A stretch of DNA of 64,000 nucleotides from Pseudomonas oryzihabitans. GTDB lineage: Bacteria > Pseudomonadota > Gammaproteobacteria > Pseudomonadales > Pseudomonadaceae. The stretch is taken from contig NZ_CP017024.1 in the NCBI RefSeq assembly GCF_014522265.1, positions 3,978,501-4,042,500 of the forward strand, in the 5' to 3' direction. A program made the position numbers and the translations under genes. Below, piece after piece: positions 37,271 through 52,065 of the stretch; positions within the stretch are counted from its first letter, which is position 1; each line of letters opens with the position of its first letter. The notes below the pieces were generated by a model, which was not told the origin of the DNA, ran no database searches, and saw only the letters and a list, made by a program, of their open reading frames with translations.

Positions 37271-38202
37271 GCGTTTCTCCCGCGCGGATCGATCAGGTGG
37301 TTGGCGAGATCGACCAGGGTATTGAGGATGACGAACAGCAGCCCCATCGCTAGGGCGGTGCCCTGCACCATGGGCACGTCGCGCTGGACGATGGCGTGGA
37401 CCAGACCGTGACCGATGCCCGGCCAGGCGAACAGCGTCTCCACCACCACCACGCCCTCGATGAGATACACCAGCTGCACGCCCAGGTAGGTCACCACCGG
37501 CACGCCGATGTTGCGCAGGCCATGGCGCAGGAAGACGCTGGCGCCTTTCAGGCCCTTGAGGCGGCCGAAGCGGTAGTAGGCGGACGCGGCGACCTCCACC
37601 GTGGCGTCCCGGGCGACCCGCGACGACACCGCGGCGAGCCCCAGGGCCAGGGTCAGCGTGGGCAAGACGCTGTGCCAGAAGGTACCGTGACCGGCCGCCG
37701 GGAACAGCTGCCAGGAGATGGCGAACAGCAGCACGAAGATCACGCCCAGGACGAATTGCGGCAGCGCGCGGATCGCGGTGGTCAGCACCAGCAGGCCGCG
37801 GTCCAGCAGACTCCCCGGACGCAGACCGGCCACCACGCCCAGCGGCGGGCCCAGGAGCAGCGACAGGCAGACGGCACCGATGGCCAGGCGGATGGAGCTG
37901 CCCAATTCGTGGGCGACGACGTCCATCACCGGCTTGCCGGAGACCAGCGAATGGCCGAGATCCAGGGTCAGCAGATCGCCGATCCAGGCGAGGAAGCGCC
38001 ACAGCAGGGGCTGATCCAGATTCAGCTCGGCCCGCACCGCCGCAGCTGCGGCGGTATCCACCAGATCATAGCCGTAACGCCCGGCCGCGATGCGGTAGGC
38101 GGCGTCTCCCGGCAGCAGATTCATGAACAGGAAGGTGAGACCGCCGACCAGCAGGGCGACCAGCCCCGCCTGCAGCAGGCGAAAGGCAAGCAAGCGGGTC
38201 AT
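37267..38202 (-). CDS. ABC permease, DppB/NikB type
   Basis: A 311-residue permease starting RLLAFRLLQAGLVALLVGGLTFLFMNLLPGDAA, the standard DppB opening. A large periplasmic loop (AELNLDQPLLWRFLAWIGDL) is followed by VAASAYYRFGRLKGLKGASVFLRHGLRN, the ATPase-docking loop. The ATG at 38202 overlaps the binding-protein stop (ATGA) and its own stop overlaps the next permease. Pairs with the DppC-type permease. Confidence 0.88.
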   Translation of the reverse strand: MTRLLAFRLLQAGLVALLVGGLTFLFMNLLPGDAAYRIAAGRYGYDLVDTAAAAAVRAELNLDQPLLWRFLAWIGDLLTLDLGHSLVSGKPVMDVVAHELGSSIRLAIGAVCLSLLLGPPLGVVAGLRPGSLLDRGLLVLTTAIRALPQFVLGVIFVLLFAISWQLFPAAGHGTFWHSVLPTLTLALGLAAVSSRVARDATVEVAASAYYRFGRLKGLKGASVFLRHGLRNIGVPVVTYLGVQLVYLIEGVVVVETLFAWPGIGHGLVHAIVQRDVPMVQGTALAMGLLFVILNTLVDLANHLIDPRGRNA

Positions 38203-39740
38203 GGGGTCCACCGCAGCTTGCTCAGGCCGAAGGTGCGCTCGAAGGGATCGATGGCGGCGCCTTCGACGGCATTGGACACGGCCATCGTCTGGCGATACCA
38301 GGCCACCGGAATCACCGGCAGGTCCTTTTGCACCTGGGCCATGGCGGCATGGCGCTGGCGCTGTTGCTCGGCCGGATCGTCGCTGGCCAGCAGCGCGGCC
38401 AGCGCATGGTCGAAGACCGGGTTCTTCCAGCCCAACGGACCCCATTCCGCACCGCCGTGGCCGAAATCATTGAGCAGAGTAACCAGGGGATCCGGGACCA
38501 GGGCGAAGTTGCGGCCATAGAGCGCCAGTTGCAGCGAGCCATCGTTGTGCGCGGCCGGGATGGCGCTGGAGTTCTGCACCGCGACCTCCACGTCCACGCC
38601 CACTTCGCGCAACTGCGCCTGCAGCGCGGTGGCGATCAGCGGCAGCTCGGGTCTGTCGGAATAGGTCAGCAGCTTGAGCCTGAGCGGCGTGCCGTCCTTT
38701 TGCAGGATGCCATCGGATCCCGGTGTCCAGCCCTGCCCGGCCAGCAGCTTGCGCGATGCCGCCGGATCGTAGGCGAGCGGCGCCAGCTCGGGGTCGTGCC
38801 AGGCGGGCACATTCCTGGCAAACAGCTGAGTCGCCCCGGTACCCGGCGCGCGTAACACGGCGGCGGCGACGCCTTCGCGCTGGATGGCCAGGCTGAGTGC
38901 CTGCCGTACTTCCACCGGCGCGGTGGCGCCGGCACCGGAGTTGGGGGTCAGCAGCACCACTCGCGGGACTGGCTCGATCAGCACCTTGAGACTGCTGGAG
39001 CGCTTGAGGCGGGCAATGCTGGGCGGGTCGAGCTGGAACACCAGCTCAGCATCGCCGCTCTCGGCCATCAGGGTGCGGGTCTCACCGCGGCCCGCGGCCA
39101 AGTAGGAGGTCCTGGCGATCTCCGGCTGGGCGCCCCAGTAGCCCGCGAAGCGCTTGGCAGCCAGGCGTTGCGGGGGTTCTAGCAGGGTCAGCTGGTACGG
39201 CCCCGTGCCGATGATCTGCTGTACCTTGCCTTCGCCGTCGTAGGCGGCCGGCGCCAGGATATTGGTGGAGGAATGCGCCAGCAGCGCCAGCAAGGGCTTG
39301 AAGGGTTTCGTCAGGCGGATCACCACCTCGTTGCCCTCGGCAGTGACCGATTCCAGGCCCGCCTGCTTGAGCACCCCGGGCTTGCCCCGTGCCGCATTGA
39401 GGGCAGCGGCCGCGGCTTCTGCCGTGAGGACGCTGCCGTCATGGAATTTCACCCCCTGGCGAATGGTGAGCCGCCAGGTAAGGCCATCCGCCGATTCGGT
39501 CCAGCGCACTGCCAGGCCAGGGACTGGCTGGCCCTGGGCATCGGCTTCGAGCAGCGTCTCGGTGATCTGCATGCGCTGGAAGACGAAGCCGGAAATCGAC
39601 GGATCCAGCCCACCGATCTCGAAGGGGCCGACCACGTCGAAGACGCGTTCCTCGGCGCTGGAAAGCGGCGGCACGAAGGCGACCAGGGTCGCCAACGCCG
39701 AAGCGGTCAGCGCTGAACGAAGGGTGCGGGATACCGGCAT
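38199..39740 (-). CDS. periplasmic solute-binding protein, family 5 (peptide/nickel/metallophore)
   Basis: A 513-residue SBP_bac_5 protein: signal peptide with TLRSALTASALATLVAFVPPLSSA, then GLDPSISGFVFQRMQITETLLEAD, WTESADGLTWRLTIRQGVKFHDG and IGTGPYQLTLLEP in the family order. The ATG at 39740 follows AAGGACT; the frame is open from 39869. First gene of a four-gene operon. The ligand is uncertain: the family includes dipeptides, nickel and metallophores. A Zur-box-like palindrome 75-91 bases upstream points towards zinc-related uptake. Confidence 0.85.
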   Translation of the reverse strand: MPVSRTLRSALTASALATLVAFVPPLSSAEERVFDVVGPFEIGGLDPSISGFVFQRMQITETLLEADAQGQPVPGLAVRWTESADGLTWRLTIRQGVKFHDGSVLTAEAAAAALNAARGKPGVLKQAGLESVTAEGNEVVIRLTKPFKPLLALLAHSSTNILAPAAYDGEGKVQQIIGTGPYQLTLLEPPQRLAAKRFAGYWGAQPEIARTSYLAAGRGETRTLMAESGDAELVFQLDPPSIARLKRSSSLKVLIEPVPRVVLLTPNSGAGATAPVEVRQALSLAIQREGVAAAVLRAPGTGATQLFARNVPAWHDPELAPLAYDPAASRKLLAGQGWTPGSDGILQKDGTPLRLKLLTYSDRPELPLIATALQAQLREVGVDVEVAVQNSSAIPAAHNDGSLQLALYGRNFALVPDPLVTLLNDFGHGGAEWGPLGWKNPVFDHALAALLASDDPAEQQRQRHAAMAQVQKDLPVIPVAWYRQTMAVSNAVEGAAIDPFERTFGLSKLRWTP

Positions 39741-39814
39741 GACAGTCCTTAGCAAAGCGAAAACGCCGATACCCGCTACCGAAAGCAACGCATCGACCAA
39801 GCCAATGAAGGCGC

Positions 39815-39831
39815 ACGTTATATCATAACGT
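39815..39831. promoter_or_regulatory. Zur-box-like palindrome upstream of the ABC operon
   Basis: ACGTTATATCATAACGT is a 17-base palindrome with a single mismatched pair beside the centre. Its core GTTATATCATAAC differs by one base from GTTATATTATAAC, a form of the gamma-proteobacterial Zur consensus. It lies 75 bases before the start of the solute-binding protein gene, in the right place for repression. A second TGATAA element follows closely (39836-39841). Identification as Zur is from memory of the consensus, without a search. Confidence 0.55.
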
Positions 39832-40048
39832 TTTCGTGATAAGCCAAGACCTATCTGTGATGGCAACATCCTGAAACAGCTGAAGAATTTGTCGCGGAGC
39901 GGCGGCAGGCGATCGGGTCCAGACCGATTGGTCGTAGGCCGAGGTACTCGCCCCCACGGAAAGTGCTGGCGAGAAGGGAATCGAATGCCAGGTGATAGCG
40001 CAGACTGGACGGCCGTTGGCCGCCCTGCCCTGCGTCGCCGATCTCTAC

Positions 40049-40636
40049 TCAGGCGGCCACGTTCAAGGTGCTGCCCGTGGCAATGCTGCTGCCGTTGCTG
40101 CCAATACTCTGGTACTGGCGCAATACCGCCTGGACCAGTTGCGTATAGGGGCTCGACGACGCCTGAGCGCTGGAATCGGCCTCGCTGTCACTTTGCCCGC
40201 TCGCCCCCTGCGGCGGTGGCGGCATGCGCGGACGCGCTGAACCGCCCGGTCCGGCGACGCTGGAATCGCCGGATTCCTCTGCGCCCCTTTGTCCCTGGGG
40301 TCCACCGGGCGGCGGTGCGAAGGCCGAAGCGAATTCGCTTTCGCCGACGCTGCCATCGCCATCCTGGTCGAGCATGCCGAGCAGCTTGTCGACGTCAATC
40401 GCCCCGCTCTCGTCGGTATTCGTCTGGGTATCGCTCGCCGCGCTGGCGGCGGTGGTGAGTTCGCTCTTGCTGATGGCGCCGTCGCCATCGCTGTCGAGCT
40501 TGCCGAACAGCTTCTTCAACGGATTACCGTCTTCACCTCCGCTGACGCTATTGCCGGACGCTGTCGTAGCTGTGCCTTTGATCGCGCTGGCACTGCTGTA
40601 GTAGCTGGAGTAGCCACTGCCTATTCCGCTGATCAT
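40049..40636 (-). CDS. EF-hand calcium-binding protein (XopAW-like)
   Basis: A 195-residue protein with two canonical EF-hand loops, DSDGDGAISKSE (48-59) and DQDGDGSVGESE (90-101). The N-terminus is rich in Ser/Gly/Tyr (SGIGSGYSSYYSSAS) with no classical signal peptide; the middle is proline/glycine rich and the end reads YTQLVQAVLRQYQSIGS. This plan matches the XopAW/EF-hand family in Xanthomonas and Pseudomonas, some of which are type III candidates. Calcium binding is likely; secretion is not shown. Monocistronic. Confidence 0.8.
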   Translation of the reverse strand: MISGIGSGYSSYYSSASAIKGTATTASGNSVSGGEDGNPLKKLFGKLDSDGDGAISKSELTTAASAASDTQTNTDESGAIDVDKLLGMLDQDGDGSVGESEFASAFAPPPGGPQGQRGAEESGDSSVAGPGGSARPRMPPPPQGASGQSDSEADSSAQASSSPYTQLVQAVLRQYQSIGSNGSSIATGSTLNVAA

Positions 40637-40737
40637 GGATGTCTCTCCCGGGAAATGCGGACATCAGTGTTCCGCACCGCCCAGTATCCGCCGGGTAGAT
40701 GTCAGCCATTTGGTCACTTTGTATGCCCGGCGATACA

Positions 40738-41796
40738 TCAGGGGCGCGGCAGCACCACCTGGCAGGTCAGGCCGCCGCCGGGCGTTTCCCCGAGGGTCAA
40801 CTCGCCGCCCATGTGCGCCGCCGCTTCCCGGGCGATGGCCAGCCCCAGTCCGGTCCCACCAGAGGATCGATTGCGCGAGCCCTCCAGGCGATAGAAGGGT
40901 TCGAACACGGCTTCCCGATACTGGGCCGGTATCCCCGGCCCGCGGTCGAGGATGGAGATCATCAGCCGCTCCGGCTGCTCGCTCAGGCGGATCTCGGCCT
41001 GGCCGGCGTAGCGCAGGGCATTCTGCAGCAGATTGCCCAGGCAGGAGCGCAACGCCATGGGCGCCACCTTCAACGGCTGGCAGCTGCCCTCGACAGCGAC
41101 CTGGGCGCCCTCCTCCGCCGCGTCTTCGGCCATGGCCTCGACCAGCGCCTGCACGTCGCAGAGGATGGGACGCTCCTGGCGGTGCTGTTCGCGGAGATAC
41201 CTCAGGGTGCCGTCGAGCAACTCGATCATGTCATCCACGTCCTGGCTGACCCGGGCATGCAGGCGCGGATCGTCGATGTCCTCGATGCGCAGCTTCACCC
41301 GCGCCAGGGGCGTGCGCAGGTCATGGGAGATGGCCGTGAGCATGCGCCCGCGCTGCTGGAGCTGTTCGAGCAGATGCTGGTGCATGCGGTTGAGCGCCCG
41401 CGCGGCTTCCCGGGTCTCCCAGGGGCCGGTGACCGGAATGGGCGAACCGTCGAGGTTATGGCTGAGGTGTTCGGCGGTCTCGGTCAGCTGGCGTAGCGGC
41501 CGCGTCAGCAATCGCGCACCGAGCCAGGCGGCGATCACCAGCGAGCCCAGCTGGAAGATCAGCGGGCCGCCCAGAAACCACTCGATGCGCCGCCAGACGC
41601 CGGGCTCCCGGTGCGGGAAAGGCCCGGGCGGCGGTGGCCGATCGAAGGCGGCTTCACCCTCCATGGGTGGCGGCGGTGGCGCCGGTCGCTCGCCGAGTCC
41701 ATGCCGAAACCAGAAAAAGGCCAGCAGATGGCCCAGCAGGATGGCCAGTAGAAAGACCGCGAACAGGCGGGCGAACAGCGTATCCAGGCGGCGCAC
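40738..41796 (-). CDS. sensor histidine kinase (EnvZ/CpxA-like)
   Basis: A 352-residue two-membrane-segment kinase. Segment 1 (LFAVFLLAILLGHLLAFFWF) is followed by a short, very proline-rich periplasmic loop (RPAPPPPP, RPPPPGPFP), segment 2 near residues 75-95, a HAMP domain, the H-box AISHDLRTPLARVK and the ATPase motifs NLLQNALRYA, DRGPGIP and GGTGLGLAIA. The likely start is a GTG at 41796, two bases after the regulator stop, which implies coupling. Stimulus unknown. Confidence 0.87.
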   Translation of the reverse strand: MRRLDTLFARLFAVFLLAILLGHLLAFFWFRHGLGERPAPPPPPMEGEAAFDRPPPPGPFPHREPGVWRRIEWFLGGPLIFQLGSLVIAAWLGARLLTRPLRQLTETAEHLSHNLDGSPIPVTGPWETREAARALNRMHQHLLEQLQQRGRMLTAISHDLRTPLARVKLRIEDIDDPRLHARVSQDVDDMIELLDGTLRYLREQHRQERPILCDVQALVEAMAEDAAEEGAQVAVEGSCQPLKVAPMALRSCLGNLLQNALRYAGQAEIRLSEQPERLMISILDRGPGIPAQYREAVFEPFYRLEGSRNRSSGGTGLGLAIAREAAAHMGGELTLGETPGGGLTCQVVLPRP

Positions 41797-41798
41797 GG

Positions 41799-42539
41799 CT
41801 AGTGCCCTATCTGCCTGGCATCGAACAGATAGCCCTCGCCGCGCACCGTCTTGATCAACTGCGGCGCGCGGGGATCGTCGCCCAGCTTGCTGCGCAAGCG
41901 CGACACCTGCAGATCGATGCTGCGATCGAAGGCCTCGATCGCCCGGCCGCGGGTGGCGTCGAGCAACTGCTCGCGGCTCAGGACCTGGCGCGGCTGCTCG
42001 ATGAAGACCCACAGCAGCCGCACCTCGGCATTGGACAGGGGTACCATCACCCCGGCCGGCGAGTGCAGCTGATGCAGGACGCCATCGAGCTTCCAGCCAT
42101 CGAAGCTGATACTGGTCCGCGGCGCCTTGCGCTGGGGCACGCGGCCATCCTGGGTCCGGCGCAGCACCGACTGGATCCGCGCGACCAGTTCCCGAGGCTC
42201 GAAGGGCTTGGCCATATAGTCGTCGGCGCCCAGCTCCAGGCCAATGATGCGATCCGCCGGCTCGCACTGGGCGGTCAGCATCAGGATGGGAATGCCACTG
42301 TCGCGCCGCAGCGAACGACAGAGGGAAAGCCCGTCCTCCCCTGGCAGCATCAGATCCAGCACCACCAGATCGAAGGCCTCCTCCGCCAGCGCCCGGCGCA
42401 TCTCCAGGCCGTCACCCACCCCCCGGGCATTGATGCTGAAACGCGCCAGATAGCCGCAGATCAACTCGCGGATCGACGGATCGTCATCCACCAGCAGGAT
42501 GCGCGAGGTCCAGCGCGGGGATTCGGATGACAGCGACAT
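41799..42539 (-). CDS. OmpR-family response regulator
   Basis: A 246-residue regulator: receiver with LLVDDDPSIRELI, phospho-acceptor Asp in LVVLDLMLPGEDG, and KPFEPRELVARI; then a winged-helix output domain with LSNAEVRLLWVFIEQPRQVLSREQLLDATRGR and VDRSIDLQVSRLRSKLGDD-like spacing ending KTVRGEGYLFDA. It is the cognate partner of the kinase gene immediately downstream. OmpR/PhoB-type regulators of this size usually control envelope or nutrient genes. Confidence 0.9.
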   Translation of the reverse strand: MSLSSESPRWTSRILLVDDDPSIRELICGYLARFSINARGVGDGLEMRRALAEEAFDLVVLDLMLPGEDGLSLCRSLRRDSGIPILMLTAQCEPADRIIGLELGADDYMAKPFEPRELVARIQSVLRRTQDGRVPQRKAPRTSISFDGWKLDGVLHQLHSPAGVMVPLSNAEVRLLWVFIEQPRQVLSREQLLDATRGRAIEAFDRSIDLQVSRLRSKLGDDPRAPQLIKTVRGEGYLFDARQIGH

Positions 42540-42891
42540 CGGGGCTACCTGAACAGTCGGACGATCTGGAAGTGCATGCTAGCCGCTCCGCCCGTGAGGC
42601 AGCTACGGGCTGGCATGTAGCCTTGTGTAAAGGTGGTCAAGGGGTGGATACGGAAGACGAGGCCGGCCAGGCCCTTGAACCCCGCGCCAGTCGAGAGGGC
42701 GTTCGCCTACCAGAGTAATCGCGATTGCGAAGCCGCCCGTTCGATGGTAAATCGGACAGATCGCCCTCGCTGCCGTGGTTGTCCCAGGCAATGGCGCCGT
42801 CAAGTACAGCACTTCCGGGCCTATTGCGGCTCAGCACTGGTTGGGCTAACGCCCGGCCACCTTTGTTGCGCCTCCTTTCGGAACGCCTTCC
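42540..42891. other. 352-base non-coding gap between divergent regulator and sigma-factor genes
   Basis: No supported gene; the short open frames on both strands show no family resemblance. It must carry promoters for the divergent response regulator and ECF sigma genes. I saw no clear sigma-70 or ECF-type box by eye and no strong hairpin. Confidence 0.4.
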
Positions 42892-43467
42892 TTGACGAGC
42901 AGATCAGCTGTATTGGCCAGCCCTGAAACCAATCCCGAGCCCGTCGCGCTCAATGTCCTGCTGCAAGCCTGCGGCCAGGGCAATCGTCTGGCCTTCGAAA
43001 CGCTCTACCGCGTGACCTCGAGCAGGCTGTTCGGCGTCTGCCTGCACTACGTGGGAGACCGTGCGGAGACGGAAGAGGTCTTGCAGGAGGCCTATACCGC
43101 CATCTGGCTCAAGGCCGGTACCTTTGACGCCACACGTTCCAGCGCCCTGACCTGGATGGCGACCCTGGCGCGACACAAGGCCATCGATCGACGTCGCGCC
43201 CAGCATCGTCACGAGCCGCTCGACAGCCTGGCCGAGTGGCCGGCAACCCAGTCCGTCGCCGAAGATTTCGAAGCCCATCGCCAGCGTCGCGAGATCGAGC
43301 TCTGCCTGAAAACCCTGGGCAAGGACCAGCAGACCTATATCCGGGTCGCCTTTTTCGAGGGCTATTCCTATGCCGAACTGGCCGCCCGCCACAGTATCGC
43401 GCTCGGCACGATGAAAAGCTGGATTCGGCGTGGCCTCCTGCAACTGCGAGCGTGCCTGGGCCTATGA
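42892..43467 (+). CDS. ECF-family RNA polymerase sigma factor
   Basis: A 191-residue sigma-70 protein. Region 2 (NRLAFETLYRVTSSRLFGVCLHYVGDRAETEEVLQE, then AIWLKAGTFDATRSSALTWMATLARHKAIDRRR) and region 4 (KTLGKDQQTYIRVAFFEGYSYAELAARHSIALGTMKSWIRRGL) are complete. The start is uncertain: TTG at 42892 is the first in-frame codon, with no strong ribosome site; another TTG follows at about 42913. The stop overlaps the anti-sigma ATG (ATGA), so they are translationally coupled. Confidence 0.85.
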   Translation: MTSRSAVLASPETNPEPVALNVLLQACGQGNRLAFETLYRVTSSRLFGVCLHYVGDRAETEEVLQEAYTAIWLKAGTFDATRSSALTWMATLARHKAIDRRRAQHRHEPLDSLAEWPATQSVAEDFEAHRQRREIELCLKTLGKDQQTYIRVAFFEGYSYAELAARHSIALGTMKSWIRRGLLQLRACLGL

Positions 43468-44171
43468 ACGACAAGGAGATCCCACCTTCCGAGCGACAGG
43501 CGCTGCTCGTCGCGGAATACGCCCTGGGCGTACTGTCCGCCGAAGAACGCCTGGAGGTGGAAGAACTCGTGCGGCGGGAGCCTGCTTACCAGGCGCAACT
43601 GGCGGCCTGGCAGCGGCATTTCGCCGAGTGGCTCGATGAGTTTCCGGTCGTCGAACCGCCGGCTCACGTCTGGCACGGTATCCAGCAACGGCTGTTCCCG
43701 ACGGAGGAACCGGCACCCGAGCCGATTCGCCGCTGGAACAACCCGCGCCTGTGGCGCTGGGCGACCGGGCTGGCGTTGGCCGCTGCCCTCCTGCTGGCGC
43801 TGCTCGTGTTGCTGCGCCCGGTCCAGGTCGCGACACCCGCCCTGCTCGCCCGCCTGGAACAGAGCAACGGCAGCCTGGCGTTCAGCGTCACCCTGCAGGG
43901 CGACGGCAGACAACTGCTGTTCGTGCCCACCGGCAAGCCGGATTGGCCAGACAGGAGCGCCGAGGCCTGGATCATCACGACGGATGGCAAGCCCCACTCG
44001 CTGGGCCTGCTCGACGACGCCAAGGGCGTGACCCTGCCCGTGCCCGCCGGACTCGCATCGGCACTGACGCCAGGGACGGTACTGGCGGTCTCCCTTGAGC
44101 CGCCAGCCGGTTCGCCGACAGGCTTGCCGACGGGACCGGTCATCGCCCAGGGAAAAATAATCGCGCTTTGA
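43464..44171 (+). CDS. anti-sigma factor (RskA/DUF2337-like)
   Basis: A 235-residue protein with a zinc-free anti-sigma-like head (RQALLVAEYALGVLSAEERLEVEELV), one membrane segment (WRWATGLALAAALLLALLVLL, about residues 98-118) and a periplasmic RskA-like tail with SLAFSVTLQGDGRQLLFVP and a C-terminal LEPPAGSPTGLPTGPV. It should hold the ECF sigma factor inactive at the membrane until a periplasmic signal. It starts inside the sigma gene stop. Confidence 0.84.
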   Translation: MNDKEIPPSERQALLVAEYALGVLSAEERLEVEELVRREPAYQAQLAAWQRHFAEWLDEFPVVEPPAHVWHGIQQRLFPTEEPAPEPIRRWNNPRLWRWATGLALAAALLLALLVLLRPVQVATPALLARLEQSNGSLAFSVTLQGDGRQLLFVPTGKPDWPDRSAEAWIITTDGKPHSLGLLDDAKGVTLPVPAGLASALTPGTVLAVSLEPPAGSPTGLPTGPVIAQGKIIAL

Positions 44172-44245
44172 TGCATCCGTTTGCCGGGCTGCTCCGTACA
44201 TTCATCACCCTCATCCGGAGGGCCGAAGAACTCAGGAGACGCAAC

Positions 44246-44809
44246 ATGCACACCTTGCTCAAGCGTATCGCCGTGGTAGCCAGTCTCGCGATCCTAGGTG
44301 CCACCGCCCCGCTCAGCTTCGCTGCCGATACCGTCATGGTCGGTGGCGCGCCCATGTACCCCTCCAAGACCATCGTCGAGAACGCGGTCAACTCCAAGGA
44401 CCACACCACGCTGGTGGCGGCCGTCAAGGCGGCGGGCCTGGTCGACACCCTCAACGGCAGCGGTCCCTTCACCGTCTTCGCCCCGACCAACGAAGCCTTT
44501 GCCAAGCTGCCCGCCGGCACCGTCGATACCCTGGTAAAGCCCGAGCACAAGGCCGACCTGACCAAGATCCTGACCTACCACGTGGTGCCCGGCACCCACA
44601 CCGCCAAACAATTGATGGCCGAGGCCAAGATGCATGGCGGCATGACCAAGCTGAAAACCGTCCAGGGCGAAGACCTGACCGTGAAGCTGCATGACGGCAA
44701 GCTCTGGCTGGTCGACGCCAAGGGCGGCAAGGCCGCCGTCACCATCGCCGACGTGATGCAGTCCAACGGCGTGATCCACGTGGTCGATACCGTGCTGATG
44801 CCGAAGTAA
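44246..44809 (+). CDS. secreted fasciclin-domain (FAS1) protein
   Basis: A 187-residue protein with a signal peptide (LLKRIAVVASLAILGATAPLSFA) and one FAS1 domain: HTTLVAAVKAAGLVDTLNGSGPFTVFAPTNEAFAKLP, then ILTYHVVPGTHTAKQL and a final GVIHVVDTVLMPK. FAS1 domains mediate adhesion or surface binding. The ATG at 44246 has CAGGAG at 44233-44238; the longer frame from 44168 overlaps the anti-sigma gene. It is 74 bases behind the sigma/anti-sigma pair and is probably its target. Confidence 0.9.
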   Translation: MHTLLKRIAVVASLAILGATAPLSFAADTVMVGGAPMYPSKTIVENAVNSKDHTTLVAAVKAAGLVDTLNGSGPFTVFAPTNEAFAKLPAGTVDTLVKPEHKADLTKILTYHVVPGTHTAKQLMAEAKMHGGMTKLKTVQGEDLTVKLHDGKLWLVDAKGGKAAVTIADVMQSNGVIHVVDTVLMPK

Positions 44810-44823
44810 GCGGCAGGCGGCGG

Positions 44824-44852
44824 GCGGACACCGGTCAGGGGTGTCCGCTTTT
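44824..44852 (+). terminator. intrinsic terminator after the fasciclin gene
   Basis: GCGGACACC and GGTGTCCGC make a 9-bp stem with a 7-base loop, followed by TTTT. It ends the sigma/anti-sigma/fasciclin unit and marks the left border of the accessory region. Confidence 0.82.
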
Positions 44853-45045
44853 ACTTGGTAGCGATCCGTGGGGCGGTTACCTCTTCCGTGGCGAGCCATA
44901 CCAGACCGCATTCTGACTGGTCAGCTGCGCGAGACGCGCCCGGATCCTGCGCCCTTGGAGTCTCGGCGAATTTCCCATCTGCGAAGCTAAAAGGCAGCTT
45001 TGATGCGATCATGCCGCCAGCTAACGTAGATAGATGGAGATTTGG

Positions 45046-45546
45046 ATGAAGCGGAGCACTTGGACCCTTTGGGCCATCGCAGGGGCGGGACTGGCTTTTG
45101 TAGCGATAGACCAACTGATTAAGCTCGCTGCGTTGGCTCAGCTTGCCGCAATTTCCTATCGGCTTGGCACCTCCAGCCTATGGATGGATGTGGTCCTGAG
45201 TCGGAATCCTGGCGCCTTCCTCAGCATCGGTCAGGATCTGCCATCGACAGTGAAATCAGTGATTTTCCTTTGCGCGCTGGCAGCTGTCGCAGGCGTCAGC
45301 TACTGGGCGCTCTCGCGTTGGCAGCAGTCCCCAGGTCGCTCGGCGGCTCTGTACCTGATCGCTCTTGGAGGCGGTTCGAATCTCATCGATCGATTCTTTC
45401 GCGATGGCCACGTTGTCGACTACCTGGTCCTGAACCTGGGCTCACTCCACACAGGCGTCTTCAACCTCGCGGACGTAGCGATCATGGCAGGTGTGGCCTA
45501 CCTGGCCCTGTCAGGATTTTCGAAAGAACAGAAGGCGCTAGCCTGA
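45046..45546 (+). CDS. signal peptidase II-like protein (LspA paralogue)
   Basis: A 166-residue membrane protein with four hydrophobic segments and the LspA signature: SRNPGAFLSIG, the catalytic-Asp motif LIDRFFRDGHVVDYL and FNLADVAIMAGV. LspA removes lipoprotein signal peptides. I chose the ATG at 45046 because GGAG lies six bases upstream; an in-frame ATG sits 12 bases earlier. Extra lspA-like genes often ride on metal-resistance islands (pbrC type), and the arsenic operon 400 bases on agrees. The core lspA is expected elsewhere. Confidence 0.82.
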   Translation: MKRSTWTLWAIAGAGLAFVAIDQLIKLAALAQLAAISYRLGTSSLWMDVVLSRNPGAFLSIGQDLPSTVKSVIFLCALAAVAGVSYWALSRWQQSPGRSAALYLIALGGGSNLIDRFFRDGHVVDYLVLNLGSLHTGVFNLADVAIMAGVAYLALSGFSKEQKALA

Positions 45547-45865
45547 TCTACGAAGACGACGACCAGCACGGTAACTGCAGGGCTGCTCGCGAGAGCTACG
45601 ACGCCTTGCGGGCCTTCTTCCACGACATCTACAGCGCTAAAAAGCAGGAGGCCATTGCCGGCGGTGGCGACAACGTGAAGGACCTGGGCCACACCTACGC
45701 CTACCAACTCGCCCTGGGCCGCCCTGAGCTCATGCCCGAACTCACCTACACCCTGCAAGGGCGTGAAGGCCGAGAATCTAGTACGGAGGAAGCGTGCAGC
45801 ACCGCTTCACCGCGGACGGCGGCTACCCAATTCCGCCTCGAGCTGGAAGCCAAGCTGCCGGAAGC
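45547..45865 (+). pseudogene. remnant of a P2-like phage late-control gene D (copy A)
   Basis: Broken translation of this stretch contains RAFFHDIYSAKKQEAIAGGGDNVKDLGHTYA, the body of gpD-like late-control proteins, then LALGRPELMPELTYTLQG and RLELEAKLPEA. The part from about 45700 to 45865 matches copy B (48985-49160) base by base at roughly four in five positions, with small indels that destroy the frame. Between the two gpD segments part of the gene is missing. It is cut off directly before the ars promoter. No start or function remains. Confidence 0.7.
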
Positions 45866-45879
45866 TAGACCGCCAGTTG

Positions 45880-45904
45880 ATACATATGTATTTTCGCATA
45901 TGCG
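45880..45904 (+). promoter_or_regulatory. ars operon operator/promoter region
   Basis: Two palindromes sit side by side, ATACATATGTAT (45880-45891) and CGCATATGCG (45895-45904), followed by CATATATTC. The CATATGCG element is like the known E. coli ArsR operator. They lie 28-52 bases before the arsR start, where an arsenite-responsive repressor would bind. No convincing -35/-10 pair with ideal spacing was identified. Confidence 0.65.
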
Positions 45905-45931
45905 GATTTTCATATATTCAAGGCTCTGGCT

Positions 45932-46306
45932 ATGTCCCCCACCAGCTTCTTCAAATGTCTCGCTGACGATACGCGCGGGCGCATCATGCTCATGCTCTGC
46001 GCCGAAGCGGAATTGTGCGTGTGCGAACTCATCCACGCGCTCGACGACAGCCAGCCGAAAGTCTCACGCCACCTTGCGCAGCTACGCGCCTGCGGATTGC
46101 TTGAGGATCGGCGCGAAGGACAGTGGATCTACTACCGGCTGCACCCCCAATTGCCTGCCTGGGCCCGGGAGGTTCTGGAGCTGACGCTCGGGGCAAACCT
46201 GCCGTGGGTACAGCCTCAGATGGATCGCCTCGCCGCAATGGACAGCCGGCCTACCAGGCAGGCTGCTTGCTGCCCGCCAGGCGCGGTGGAGACCGCGTCA
46301 TGCTGA
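45932..46306 (+). CDS. arsR: arsenite-responsive transcriptional repressor ArsR
   Basis: A 124-residue ArsR/SmtB protein. The arsenite-binding motif ELCVCEL has cysteines 29 and 31, followed by the DNA-reading helix [32 protein letters not shown]. The tail carries a CC pair and a terminal Cys. It represses the operon until As(III) binds. Its stop overlaps the arsB start by 7 bases. Confidence 0.94.
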
Positions 46307-47589
46307 TTGCTGCATCGATCTTCCTTCTGACCCTGGTACTGGTGATCTGGCAACCAAGAGGGCTTGGCGTGGGCTGGAGCGCAGCGGGCGGTGCGGTACT
46401 GGCGCTACTGACGGGCACCGTCAGCCTGGCCGACGTCCCTGTTGTCTGGAACATCGTCTGGAATGCGACGGCTACCTTCATCGCCGTGATCATCATCAGC
46501 CTGGTACTGGATGAAGCGGGCTTTTTCGAGTGGACAGCGCTCCATGTCGCCCGCTGGGGACGCGGCAAATCAGGCAGGCTGTTCGCCTACATGATCCTGC
46601 TGGGCGCCGTCGTGTCCGCCCTGTTCGCCAACGACGGCGCAGCCCTCATCCTGACACCCATCGTGATCGCCATGCTGGTAGCGCTGCGCTTCAGTCCGGC
46701 CTCGACGCTTGCCTTCGTCATGGCTGCGGGCTTCATCGCCGATACGGCCAGCCTCCCACTGGTGGTGTCCAACCTGGTCAACATCGTTTCCGCTGACTTC
46801 TTTCAGATCGACTTCGGCGAATACGCCTCGATCATGTGGCCGGTCAATATCGTCAGCGTCGCCGCGACGCTATTGATGCTGTGGCTGTTCTACCGCAAGG
46901 ACATCCCGGCGTCTTACGACCCGCACGCGCTCGAACAGCCGCAGAACGCCATTCGCGATCGCGCTACCTTCCAGGCGGGATGGTGGATCCTGGGTTTCCT
47001 CCTGGTCGGGCTATTCGCCCTGGAGCCGCTCGGGATTCCGATCAGTGCAGTGGCAGCGGTCTGTGCAGCTGTGCTGCTCATCATCGCCGGCAAGGGATCG
47101 GTCATCTCCACACGCCAGGTACTCGCCAAGGCCCCCTGGCAGGTCGTGCTCTTCTCGCTGGGCATGTACCTGGTGATCTACGGCCTGCGCAATGCGGGGC
47201 TCACCGAGGCCCTTTCCTCCCTGCTCAACACCTTCGCCAGTCATGGCCTGTGGTCGGCAACCCTGGGCACCGGCCTCACCGCTGCGCTGCTCTCCTCGAT
47301 CATGAACAACATGCCCAGCGTCTTGATCGGCGCCCTGTCCATCCAGGGCGGTGAGGCCAGCGGGGTCGTCCAGCAGGCCATGATCTACGCCAACGTCATC
47401 GGGTGCGATCTGGGTCCGAAGATCACGCCGATCGGCAGCCTGGCCACCCTGCTCTGGCTCCACGTCCTGGCCCAGAAAGGCATCCGCATCACCTGGGGCT
47501 ACTACTTCCGAGTGGGCTGCGTGCTCACCTTTCCCATCCTGATCGCCACCCTCGCCGCCCTGGCCGTGCGCCTCAGCATTCATCCGTAG
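46300..47589 (+). CDS. arsB: arsenite efflux permease ArsB
   Basis: A 429-residue ArsB/NhaD-superfamily transporter with about 12 membrane segments. Family blocks include [81 protein letters not shown] and [23 protein letters not shown]. It extrudes arsenite and antimonite by proton antiport. The ATG at 46300 overlaps the arsR stop; the frame is open upstream without homology. No arsA gene is present, so it works alone. Confidence 0.94.
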
Positions 47590-47597
47590 GAGAAGCC

Positions 47598-48071
47598 ATG
47601 AAAGTCCTCTTTATGTGCACGGCCAATAGCTGCCGCAGCGTTCTGTCTGAAGGTCTCTTCAACCACCTTGCACCTGCTGGCTGCTCTGCCGTGAGCTCAG
47701 GCAGCTTTCCCAGCGGACGGTTGAACCCTATCGCGGTCCAGACGCTGGAGGGCCTGGGCATCGATACTTCCGGCCTCTACAGCAAAGGGTCCGAGACCTT
47801 TGAAGGCAACCCGCCAGACATCATCATCACGGTCTGTGACAAGGCGGGAGGCGAGCCCTGTCCGGTCTTCTTTGGTCCCTCGATAAAAAGCCACTGGGGC
47901 TTGGCGGATCCTTCTGACGTTGTCGGCAATAATGACCAGGTCCAGGCCGCGTTCGATGCAACGGTGGCTCAGATCCGCAGAAGACTGGACGCCTTTTTCC
48001 GTCTAGACCCGAACGCATTGAGCCCAGCGCAACTGAAGCAGGCGCTCGATGAGATCGGAGAGATCCAATGA
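47598..48071 (+). CDS. arsC: arsenate reductase, thioredoxin-coupled (low-MW phosphatase type)
   Basis: A 157-residue enzyme with the P-loop CTANSCR (Cys7, Cys12, Arg13) and redox cysteines Cys80 and Cys88 ([11 protein letters not shown]), the spacing of S. aureus-type ArsC. It reduces As(V) to As(III) for ArsB. TAGGAGA precedes the ATG. The stop overlaps the arsH ATG (ATGA). Confidence 0.93.
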
Positions 48072-48790
48072 GCGCCACTCTCGAAACCAGCCCCAACCTG
48101 GACGAATCGCTATTCGACGTCCCTACCGTCGATAAGCTCTCCGAGCCGGAACAGCTTCAGCACAAGCCGCGCATCCTGCTGCTGTACGGATCGAATCGGG
48201 AGCGCTCCTTCAGCCGGCTGCTGGTTGAGGAAGCAGCCCGAATCCTGCAGCTCATGGGCGCCGAGACGGCAGTCTTCAATCCAACCGGCCTGCCGCTGCC
48301 TGACGACGCGCCGGTAGAGCATCCCAAGGTTCAGGAGCTTCGCGATCTGGTGCTCTGGTCCGAAGGGCAGGTGTGGTGCTCCCCCGAGCGCCATGGCTCG
48401 ATGTCAGCGGTATTCAAGGCGCAGATCGACTGGATTCCGCTCACGCTGGGCGCGGTACGTCCTACCCAAGGCAAGACGCTCGCTGTCATGCAGGTCAGTG
48501 GCGGATCCCAGTCGTTCAACACGGTGAACCAGCTGCGGATCCTCGGCCGCTGGATGCGCATGGTGACCATCCCCAACCAGTCATCGGTCCCCAAGGCGTT
48601 CCTGGAATTCGACGAAGCGGGTCGCATGAAACCCTCGGCCTACTACGACCGGGTGGTGGACGTCATGGAGGAGCTGATGAAATTCACGCTTCTCACCAGA
48701 GGCCGGGACGCCTACCTGGTTGATCGCTACTCCGAGCGCAAGGAGAGCGCAGAAGCACTTTCAGCGCGGGTCAATCAGCGCTCGATCTGA
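48068..48790 (+). CDS. arsH: ArsH, NADPH-dependent FMN reductase
   Basis: A 240-residue flavodoxin-fold protein: [23 protein letters not shown] (FMN phosphate loop), [23 protein letters not shown], and [21 protein letters not shown]. ArsH oxidises organic trivalent arsenicals and acts as an NADPH:FMN reductase. Last gene of the ars operon. Confidence 0.93.
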
Positions 48791-48799
48791 TCGACGGCC

Positions 48800-48900
48800 T
48801 TCCAACCTGTCCGCGGCAACTCCCCGACCGCGTCGTATACCCCCCGACAGCAGCTCCCGCCGCATCTACCACCGGATCGGCGGGCACAAGGCCGTAGCGT
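48800..48900 (-). pseudogene. scrap of a umuC 3' end
   Basis: The plus strand from about 48805 to 48895 matches 50168-50260 (the 3' end of the umuC remnant) closely, including the shared CAGCTCCCGCCGCATCT and CGGATCGGCGGGCAC blocks, with several single-base gaps. It reads on the minus strand as VPADP followed by broken frames. Only about 100 bases remain. It shows that the umuC end exists twice in this region. Confidence 0.7.
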
Positions 48901-48949
48901 TTCCAGTCCTCAACTTGCTGCGTCTCGCCAGAGTCCCCTTTCAGCCTAC

Positions 48950-49375
48950 GCCACACGACATTTTCCGCGCACTACCGCCACCCTTGCCTACCCGCTCGCC
49001 CTGGCCCGACCGAAGCTCATGCCCGAACCCGCCTACACCCTGCAGGGTGTGAAGGCCGAGATCGACGCCATCATCTGGTACGGCGGGAACGTGCAGCACA
49101 GTCTCACGGCGGACGGCGGCTACACCACGCGCCTCGAGCTGGAAGCCAAGCTGCCGGAAGACCTGGTCGCCGACCTGGTCGACGAGATCCAGGGCGACTA
49201 CACCGGCATCATCGCCTACTACCGAGATCCCGAGACCGGCAAGGAGCACACCCTCACCGAGGGCGACCAGAGCAAGCCGCGGCGGCTCAGGCACCTGTAC
49301 GCCACCAAGGCGACGGCGAAGCGGGCCGTGGAAAGGGAGTGGAAAAAGCTGAAAGAAACTGACCTGGCTACCTAA
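48950..49375 (+). pseudogene. 3' part of a P2-like late-control gene D (copy B)
   Basis: An open frame of 118 codons starts at 49019 (ATG in MPEPAYTLQG) and ends at 49375. Its homology begins earlier, near 48990. It contains VKAEIDAIIWYGGNVQHSLT, GYTTRLELEAKLPE and the tail RRLRHLYATKATAKRAVEREW, typical of the C-terminal part of gpD, which completes phage tail assembly. The first two thirds are missing, so it cannot be functional as gpD. It converges with the membrane-protein gene, overlapping its stop. Confidence 0.72.
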
Positions 49376-50097
49376 CGCGGTAGAGCAGGCTGACAGTCCG
49401 AGGCACTAGCCAATGGAGAAACAACCCACTCACTACCTGGATCAATAATGGAAAACCTTTGGCGAGGTTCGCAAGGCAGTACCAAATACTTACCATTCAC
49501 AGAGCCCACCAATATTGATTTATCAGCTCCAGAGAGCCTAGACACCATATAAGTAGAACCCAGCCCTTTAGCAACTTCCTTATATTTCGAATCTGTAGCT
49601 ATATAAATTAATACAAAAAGTAGAACAGGAACCCCCATGAAGTAAATTGAAAGATTCTTCGCCTCACGCTTCTCATATATGGAAAAAAATAAATCATAAA
49701 ATATTGGCCCCATATAAACGTAAGGGAACACCTCCATTACGGGGTCAAAAAACACTGACGATTTGGAGAATAATTTCGAAAGCCCGCCAGCGATCAAGAG
49801 GGAGACCAACCCTATCAACCCTAGGATAACCTGAGCATTCTGAAGCGAATTCTCTCGCCATTTTGTAAAGCTAAATATTACTGCCGAGACAAACGCCGCT
49901 GCCACCCCAACAGCGCCATTCGCTATAAAGTCTTGTGGCCCATGAAACCTAAGAACCCACGTGCAATCCAGAACCGCATATAGGACTGCTAGCTTTAGAT
50001 AGCCCAGAGCATACGTGACAAGTGTAAGAGTCGTTATAATTGCCCCAAATTCGATGATTCGGCGGGGTGGTTTTTCAATGTCAGCAGAACCTTCCAT
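49372..50097 (-). CDS. low-GC membrane protein of unknown function
   Basis: A 241-residue protein with about five hydrophobic segments (near 16-38, 62-80, 90-108, 116-138 and 148-166) and a soluble tail of about 70 residues (from TDSKYKEVAKGLGS) holding one cysteine in LVLPCEPRQR. AGGAAAG lies well placed before the ATG at 50097, so it looks intact and translated. Its codon use is clearly more AT-rich than the neighbours, a sign of transfer. I recognise no family. Between a phage gpD remnant and a umuC remnant it sits where phage cargo is found. Confidence 0.7.
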   Translation of the reverse strand: MEGSADIEKPPRRIIEFGAIITTLTLVTYALGYLKLAVLYAVLDCTWVLRFHGPQDFIANGAVGVAAAFVSAVIFSFTKWRENSLQNAQVILGLIGLVSLLIAGGLSKLFSKSSVFFDPVMEVFPYVYMGPIFYDLFFSIYEKREAKNLSIYFMGVPVLLFVLIYIATDSKYKEVAKGLGSTYMVSRLSGADKSILVGSVNGKYLVLPCEPRQRFSIIDPGSEWVVSPLASASDCQPALPR

Positions 50098-50145
50098 GCT
50101 CGCACTTTCCTAACAGGCAAATTGTTATTAACCAATCATAGCGGA

Positions 50146-50874
50146 TTAGATTGCATAATCTAGCCAGCCTGCGGTAACTCCCCCCCACCTTGTCATATAC
50201 CCCCGCGACAACAGCTCCCGCCGCATCTGCCACCCCGGATCGGCGGGCACCCGCCCCACGTGTAGCGCCGCCCGCCCGTATCGCGCATTGATCCGGTCCA
50301 CCACCCGCATCCGCTCGCTGGGCCGCCCCTGCCAGGCCGGGGCGAAGAGATCCGGCGTGAACTCGTCCGTCTGCACGATGCTGCCCAGCACCCCGGCGCA
50401 CTTCGAGTAGGCGTAGCCCTCGCGATAAATGGGGTCCAAGCCGGCCAGAACGACCTGCACCAGGAGGCGGGTGTAATCGATAGGGTGCGCGAGCGGGATA
50501 CACAGGCTGCGGTAGTAGCGGCGCTCCTCCAGCTCATGCTGCCCGGTCTGGATGCTCACCAGCGCCAGCGTTCGGGTGCTGGATATCCCGACGCCGATGG
50601 GCATATGCACTCGCGTCAGGCTCTTACGGTCCAGCCCCAGGACGCCAAGCAGGCCGATGAGGTCCGCCCAGCACTTGTTGATCGAATACGCCTCCACGTC
50701 CAGCACCATCCCCTGGATGGTCCGCACCACCCGGTTCGAGACGTCGGCGTAGAGCTTGTAGTTGGAATTGAGGAAGCCCACGTTGTGCTCTGGACACGCG
50801 CCATATCTCACTTTCTCATCGATACTTAAAGGGTCCGCTTCCAATCGGATGCCTGGCTTTCCTGATAGACTCAA
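50146..50874 (-). pseudogene. umuC: degraded umuC (DNA polymerase V catalytic subunit)
   Basis: An open frame of 242 codons keeps UmuC pieces: LNSNYKLYADVSNRVVRTI and EAYSINKCWADL (active-site Ser-Ile-Asp-Glu-Cys is changed to SINKC), MPIGVGISSTRTLAL, then the C-terminal FAYSK-like YAYSKCAGVLG, TPDLFAP, RVVDRINARYGR and ADPGWQMRRELLSRGYMTRW. The N-terminal catalytic part and a middle block are missing; a normal UmuC has about 420 residues. The loss of the catalytic acids makes it inactive. Confidence 0.8.
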
Positions 50875-51054
50875 CCCTGAACTCCAGCATGCTGCAGACC
50901 CGGATTTCTACGCTTGTTCTGCCGTTTTTTGGCAGTGAGACGTTAGCGTTCCCCTTCCGATTCAACTCATGCTCCTTACGCTTGCGACCTTGCAGCTACA
51001 GCTCTACTGAAGCGGCTGAAAGGTAGCAAACCAGCTCCACACAGACGTACCGAG
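50875..51054. other. gap between umuC remnant and dusA
   Basis: No gene. A small hairpin CTGCC/GGCAG around a T-run lies at about 50919-50936. The region directly precedes the dusA 5' end, which is the attachment site used by the dusA-specific integrase family, so it marks the right border of the accessory segment. No integrase gene remains. Confidence 0.4.

Positions 51055-52065
<1,011 letters not shown>

Follow-up and report, generated by a model that had tools for sequence, protein, structure and literature searches.

Two gpD-cargo-umuC units beside dusA in Pseudomonas oryzihabitans, a probable relic of a P2-like prophage

The window analysed here, 64,000 nucleotides of Pseudomonas oryzihabitans within a single 5.05-Mb contig (NZ_CP017024.1), contains next to dusA two successive units, each formed by a forward piece of the phage tail gene gpD, cargo, and a reverse piece of umuC. 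The first unit encloses arsR, arsB, arsC and arsH, and the second encloses one minus-strand gene for a 241-aa membrane protein (Table 1). A P2-like, Citexvirus-related prophage of the dusA type probably left the region from 45555 to about 50830 as its relic; its accessory slot would have survived as a two-unit array produced by illegitimate joining, followed by decay.

The two units and an intact counterpart in the same genome

Comparison of the window with itself matched the two gpD pieces (45699-45864 with 48986-49160, 81% over 177 nt, expectation value (E) 7e-42) and the two umuC pieces (48813-48887 with 50171-50250, 85% over 80 nt, E 6e-17). All four were also matched to a resident P2-like prophage at 2.51 Mb of the same chromosome, gpD piece 1 in two blocks at 83% and 81% (E 1e-35 and 1e-43), gpD piece 2 at 91% over 376 nt (E 6e-148), the umuC scrap at 89% (E 6e-21), and the umuC remnant at 86% over 426 nt (E 1e-138) with one further block. 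These matches confirmed the claim of a first-pass annotation that a gpD/umuC junction is present twice in the same orientation with different cargo, and the self-alignment reflects real similarity instead of chance short blocks, which the E-values rule out. A single cargo inserted into one junction was likewise ruled out by the two separate gpD and umuC sets.

None of the four pieces is intact, and their coordinates were refined from the match to locus L099rc. Piece 1 of gpD consists of 45555-45713 and 45692-45864, corresponding to gpD nt about 670-828 and 879-1060 with the intervening stretch missing, and ends at about nt 1060 of 1266, the final ~200 nt being lost; the ars operon therefore does not lie behind a normally ending gpD piece. 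Piece 2 covers gpD nt ~867-1257, with the 5' two thirds absent. The open reading frame (ORF) 50146-50874, previously taken as a umuC remnant throughout, is a fusion pseudogene: umuC homology holds for 50138-50789, the first 85 nt of the frame (50790-50874) lie beyond it, and 50832-50874 matches the dusA-side flank. The 79-nt filler at 48888-48966 gave no convincing match among phages or fetched loci (best outside match E 0.02 over 18 residues, in L211); it is open on the umuC strand.

In the resident prophage the slot is complete and holds other cargo, with a full gpD (422 aa) facing umuC (427 aa) and umuD (142 aa), and between them a 266-aa frame and a short protein reading in two overlapping frames. 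Profiles of PHROG identified a tail protein, a DNA polymerase, a UmuD-like protein and a CII-like activator in this prophage. A frameshift may have disrupted the second cargo gene (L003:6660-7063), the one with two overlapping frames.

Table 1. Features around the two units, with positions in the window
Feature	Position	Strand	Evidence and remarks
Fasciclin-domain gene	44246..44809	+	Pfam Fasciclin 2e-38; chromosomal left flank
lspA-like signal peptidase II gene	45034..45546	+	Pfam Peptidase_A8 8e-23; between left flank and gpD piece 1
gpD piece 1, pseudogene	45555..45864	+	81-83% to resident gpD; also matches L099rc
arsR	45932..46306	+	Pfam HTH_5 1e-13; 85% nt to L028 1663-1950
arsB	46300..47589	+	Pfam ArsB 4e-156
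arsC-like gene, low-molecular-weight phosphatase (LMWP) type	47598..48071	+	Pfam LMWPc 2e-18; name arsC from operon position
arsH-like gene	48068..48790	+	Pfam FMN_red 4e-33; name from operon position; 3' end common to L095, L028 and L030
umuC 3' scrap, right border of unit 1	48803..48887	-	83-92% to umuC 3' ends of other prophages
79-nt filler where the two units meet	48888..48966		No convincing match
gpD piece 2	48967..49357	+	91% to resident gpD; 93% over 376 nt to L016 gpD; PHROG tail protein 8e-21
Membrane protein gene, unit 2 cargo	49372..50097	-	Hydrophobic stretches; 42-43% to L006/G005 slot gene
umuC remnant, right border of unit 2	50138..50789	-	~0.4 kb internal loss; Pfam DUF4113 and IMS on ORF 50146-50874
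dusA-side flank	50832..51054		74% to L095 17886-18156, the right prophage end of G006
dusA	51055..52065	+	Pfam Dus 5e-83; integration target of related G006 prophage

A variable cargo slot in related prophages

Relatives were collected by gpD-based searches, which gave 5 loci in named genomes (L006 being from Pseudomonas oryzihabitans NBRC 102199) and 51 viral loci. At genus level gpD was matched in 7 of 13 genomes, own genome included, and at family level any match, many of them weak and distant, was obtained in 171 of 398 genomes, from which 40 loci were fetched, two ending at contig ends. Four phage records from P. aeruginosa, of which three carry the label Citexvirus, were added, and L035, L075rc, L074, L051, L052, L076 and L008 were left out before counting as re-fetches or near copies. 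Slots closed on the right by umuC or the repressor side numbered 89, in 78 clusters, with a umuC match in 28 of the 89; the term closed also covers slots whose sole right boundary is umuC, those in which umuC is cut off by the end of the contig (L011, L020, L029), L024 with a umuC scrap as its border, and one slot running past the repressor (L077rc).

The usual architecture is gpD, cargo, optional umuDC in reverse, and the repressor, followed by cII and ogr. A gpD-cargo-umuC arrangement with near-full umuC was found in 26 rows, four of which seem to be copies of loci already counted (L035, L075rc, L076, L159rc) and one of which (L077rc) has umuC past the repressor, away from the slot border. 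The reading of the convergent junction as a cargo slot, proposed from the window alone, is thus borne out in the resident and related prophages, and the gpD-umuC interval is supported as a variable accessory slot between conserved phage genes. The umuDC genes are a common, not an obligatory, right border, the repressor lying beyond them or replacing them. Guanine-cytosine (GC) content of the cargo was below that of gpD in 78 of 78 clusters (medians 0.50 and 0.68), and the 78 slots yielded 200 cargo ORFs of at least 90 aa in 137 protein families, 107 of them singletons; since ORF calling was mechanical, not every one of them is a gene. The same cassettes recur in different slots, for example in L030 and L033 (91% over 1.8 kb). 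The L030 slot (L030:6189-10204) strings together modules, each in common with the slot of another phage (L016, L028, L033).

For cargo content, 58 ORFs were picked by eye from the 86 listed for close relatives and scanned, giving PADLOC matches to 171 families (25 of 171 listed) and Pfam matches to 42 (25 of 42 listed), and single PADLOC scans of 10 cargo proteins were run at 1e-10. The single scans matched AbiLi and AbiLii in L032, AbiLi in L036, NsnA/PD-T4-2 in L016, PDC-S31 in L029, and a type II methyltransferase (MTase_II) in L033, and gave no match at this threshold for four of the 10 (L049, L031, L038, and the 571-aa protein of L033). Pfam scans of 10 cargo proteins found a NACHT domain in L031 and a GGDEF domain in L018, the other eight being without a match. 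GmrSD and HEPN were among the cargo Pfam families, response-regulator domains were present in 8 of the 58 scanned ORFs, one DUF4238 protein was found, and no integrase was seen among the 25 of 42 Pfam families listed. The PADLOC and Pfam matches thus predict anti-phage systems among the cargo; because the scans gave defence families, signalling domains and matchless proteins alike, defence is one theme among others in this accessory locus. The slot of Citexvirus D14A (L129:6439-9406) carries a DNA-cytosine methyltransferase and a ParB-domain gene, and related methyltransferases recur in L170rc and L172rc.

The membrane gene of unit 2 had no Pfam or PHROG match at 0.001, and its slot homologue in L006/G005 has an equal place and orientation. 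Its four matches among the 398 family genomes were the window, G005, and two remote ones. In L222 (1468-2184 and 2737-3522), a remote homologue adjoins a putative tyrosine integrase, as judged by eye.

Remnants of ars genes were found in three other slots: in L028, the 5' part of arsR is fused to the 3' part of arsH directly after intact gpD; in G006/L095, the 3' part of arsH follows intact gpD directly; and in L030, it lies deeper inside the slot. These remnants support the earlier suggestion that the junction was used for arsenic resistance, and the ars operon of the window is therefore a candidate slot cargo with good support, the only intact one among the surveyed slots.

Scars, the dusA site, and the origin of the array

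Scars were defined as partial gpD or umuC pieces (gpD', umuC') inside a slot, from blastn of the slot against the preceding genes and the following module; self-comparison by tblastx was too noisy, and the counts rest on blastn hits alone. Against the upstream genes 18 hits were obtained, of which 16 ran forward to gpD nt 843-1284, the other two (L196, reverse, and L188rc, before gpD) not being counted as scars. Half of the 16 came from loci whose upstream sequence spans 3.8-9 kb, where all eight hits were of the forward gpD 3' kind; for the other half about 0.5 kb was available. Against the following module, umuC 3' pieces were found in L016 and L033, whereas the hits in L187 were repeats elsewhere and L030 gave one 24-bp reverse hit; the umuC' of L095 is the sole umuC match in that locus. 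In total 10 of 78 clusters were scarred, with a median slot length of 5.6 kb against 2.9 kb in unscarred ones (measured to the repressor side, or to the contig end where no repressor was found), and an additional scar was present in the open slot of L169, outside the 78. No common border sequence, such as the recombination site of an integron-like cassette array, was apparent at the scars by eye (no systematic search), the start points ranging from gpD nt 843 to 1246.

The scarred prophages L016 and L095 still have gpD, repressor, cII and ogr; L033, also scarred, retains gpD and, up to the end of its locus, at least the beginning of the repressor region. The pieces inside the slots of L016 and L095 support the stacking of units that the first-pass annotation had proposed as tandem joining and decay. 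In L024/L033, the join of umuC' to gpD' falls on CTGGGCCGCCCC, one of two 12-mers common to the stand-in parents (L016 gpD, L006 umuC), and of 300,000 random draws of breakpoint pairs, 15 landed in runs of at least 10. A repeat control in the 8.9 kb before gpD gave 47 repeat pairs in 39 loci, 43 of them spaced less than 400 bp; the other four were of 25-55 bp (L044, L060), so short distant repeats also exist outside the slot. By best match, skipping scars under 45 bp, the own gpD ranked 27-30 for the scars of L024, L033 and L095, other phages' gpD being closer.

At the prophage ends, G006 carries a 90-nt copy of the dusA 5' end 38 kb to the left of dusA, with gpD in between and whole dusA at the other end. 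In the relic of G005/L099, which has the same dusA context, the chromosome passes straight into the start of gpD, and the slot holds the homologue of the window membrane gene. A search of window 44000-50849 for a left-hand copy of the dusA 5' end, at E up to 10, gave nothing beyond matches of 10-19 nt, and the dusA side alone remains.

The array probably arose in a prophage of the kind that integrates at the dusA 5' end and has its accessory slot between the last tail gene, gpD, and umuDC/repressor. Two slots would have been linked, the first by its umuC side and the second by its gpD side, through an illegitimate crossover at short homology. The partners could have been two phage genomes, or a deletion inside a tandem double lysogen could have given the same product. 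The product would have every essential gene once and a second cargo, giving the order gpD', ars operon, umuC', gpD', membrane gene, umuC', with truncated umuC' and gpD' left as scars. Long gpD duplications would be lost again through homologous recombination, which may be why only short 3' pieces are seen. A later deletion would then have taken out the structural, regulatory and replication genes. We infer this crossover route and order of events, and selection for the cargo may have kept the relic.

Several observations weigh against this account. The 40 family-level loci offered just ~0.5 kb upstream of gpD as control, and 4 of the 10 scarred clusters rest solely on 22-70 bp matches (L039-L043, L059, L174, L183rc). 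The microhomology comes from one junction (L024/L033), where the scar is one base off the 12-mer, and the window junction has the 79-nt filler and no visible microhomology. The own gpD ranked first for the scars of L060, L169, L174 and L190, second for both scars of L180rc, third for L183rc and fourth for L043. Trees built from the short gpD pieces left 23 of 33 inner branches open, and six approximately unbiased (AU) tests all gave p > 0.3 (0.58 for the two window pieces together, 0.49 for L033 scar 1 with its own gpD, and 0.33, 0.32, 0.51 and 0.34), so no claim of a proven inter-phage origin is made, and the gpD phylogeny suggested earlier leaves within-locus tandem formation and two-phage joining unseparated. 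The dusA-side flank from 50852 on is also present in congener G011, which has no gpD match, and may therefore be an older trace. Lastly, neither gpD nor umuC lay in the fetched stretch of any of 21 other viral contigs that carry a related arsB.

This last result also favours the view that the ars operon is no phage cargo at all, having been inserted in an unrelated event when the prophage was already dead. Consistent with that are the end of gpD piece 1 ~200 nt short beside ars and the lspA-like gene directly upstream, lspA being often near metal genes; such an insertion is nevertheless improbable, since the L028, L030 and L095 slots hold ars remnants, two of these directly after intact gpD, and umuC 3' sequence comes after arsH in the window. 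Two P2-like prophages integrated successively at dusA, each decayed to its slot and never forming a two-unit array in one phage, are a somewhat unlikely source. The site is reusable (5' copy and whole dusA in G006, relic in G005) and the window lacks everything between the two units, but the scarred slots inside kept prophages (L016, L095) and in L033 mean that an array requires no double decay, and the dusA 5' copy is missing from the stretch searched. Plain tandem duplication of one gpD/umuC set with later replacement of one cargo is given little credence: the tree joining the two gpD pieces is slightly better (the AU p of 0.58 above), yet the pieces are 81% alike and 85-93% like the gpD of other phages, a pattern that faster decay of piece 1 could also give, and the cargos are unrelated.

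Beyond illegitimate joining as such, the 3' ends of gpD and umuC might act as a docking pair, short identities letting related phages splice their slots and store several defence or fitness cassettes, with scars recording the additions. This idea is rather unlikely; if true, gpD' and umuC' pieces would be a readable record of each addition in one prophage.

Relation to known systems and neighbouring features

P2-like phages of E. coli have a cos-proximal defence hotspot between gpA and gpQ, of ~1-5 kb and high turnover, for which a DUF4238 protein is named (Rousset et al. 2022, PMC9122126). The gpD-umuC slot is likewise a small locus between conserved phage genes with high turnover, defence genes and a DUF4238 protein; it differs in its map position, from gpD to umuDC/repressor, and in its stacking scars, unmentioned in the available part of that paper. 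On the map of the relative Dobby, gpD extends to 24.5 kb, the slot occupies 24.5-26 kb, portal and terminase 2.8-5.6 kb, and the integrase 35.9-37.0 kb, placing the slot far from portal/terminase and away from the cos-proximal A-Q position (one record, in which cos is not annotated). The gpD-umuC slot thus works like the E. coli hotspot but is a different slot.

P2-like (Peduoviridae) prophages of the P. syringae complex carry phage-defence genes (PMC13182921), in a report whose accessible text does not name the gpD-umuC slot and lacks the words umuC and dusA. Integrases and islands associated with dusA integrate in its 5' end with direct repeats (Farrugia et al. 2015, PMC4482086), as seen in G006; unlike those elements the window has no intact integrase, and the word arsenic is absent from that paper's text. 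The umuC homologue rulB is an insertion hotspot in Pseudomonas, into which elements insert site-specifically (PMC4542609); as far as that paper's accessible part describes it, the likeness is a umuC-type gene beside mobile cargo in pseudomonads, and the difference is that here cargo lies behind the 3' end of intact umuC. Arsenic resistance genes are reported on lysogenic phages, with arsM frequent in the text (PMC10284793); arsB and arsR are absent from it, whereas the window has arsRBCH. Among the open-licence literature matches listed (P2-like hotspots, dusA, morons, phage arsenic, rulB, phiCTX/Peduoviridae), no paper on the gpD-umuC slot or on such scars was found.

The results suggest that Pseudomonas P2-like phages have a cargo slot whose map position differs from that of the E. 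coli one, with many uncharacterised proteins beside known defence families. Through the scars, illegitimate joining, a step of moron gain that normally goes unseen, would become visible, and arrays could be found and gains counted.

On the left, window 38001-44950 is collinear with L099rc at 90%, and collinearity stops at 44950. The lspA-like gene lies immediately 5' of gpD piece 1 and is absent in the related relic L099, where the chromosome joins gpD directly. Beside the dusA site, a sigma/anti-sigma/fasciclin block (42892-44825) is unmatched in the fetched dusA stretches of several congeners (e.g. G011, G002, G010) and present in others.

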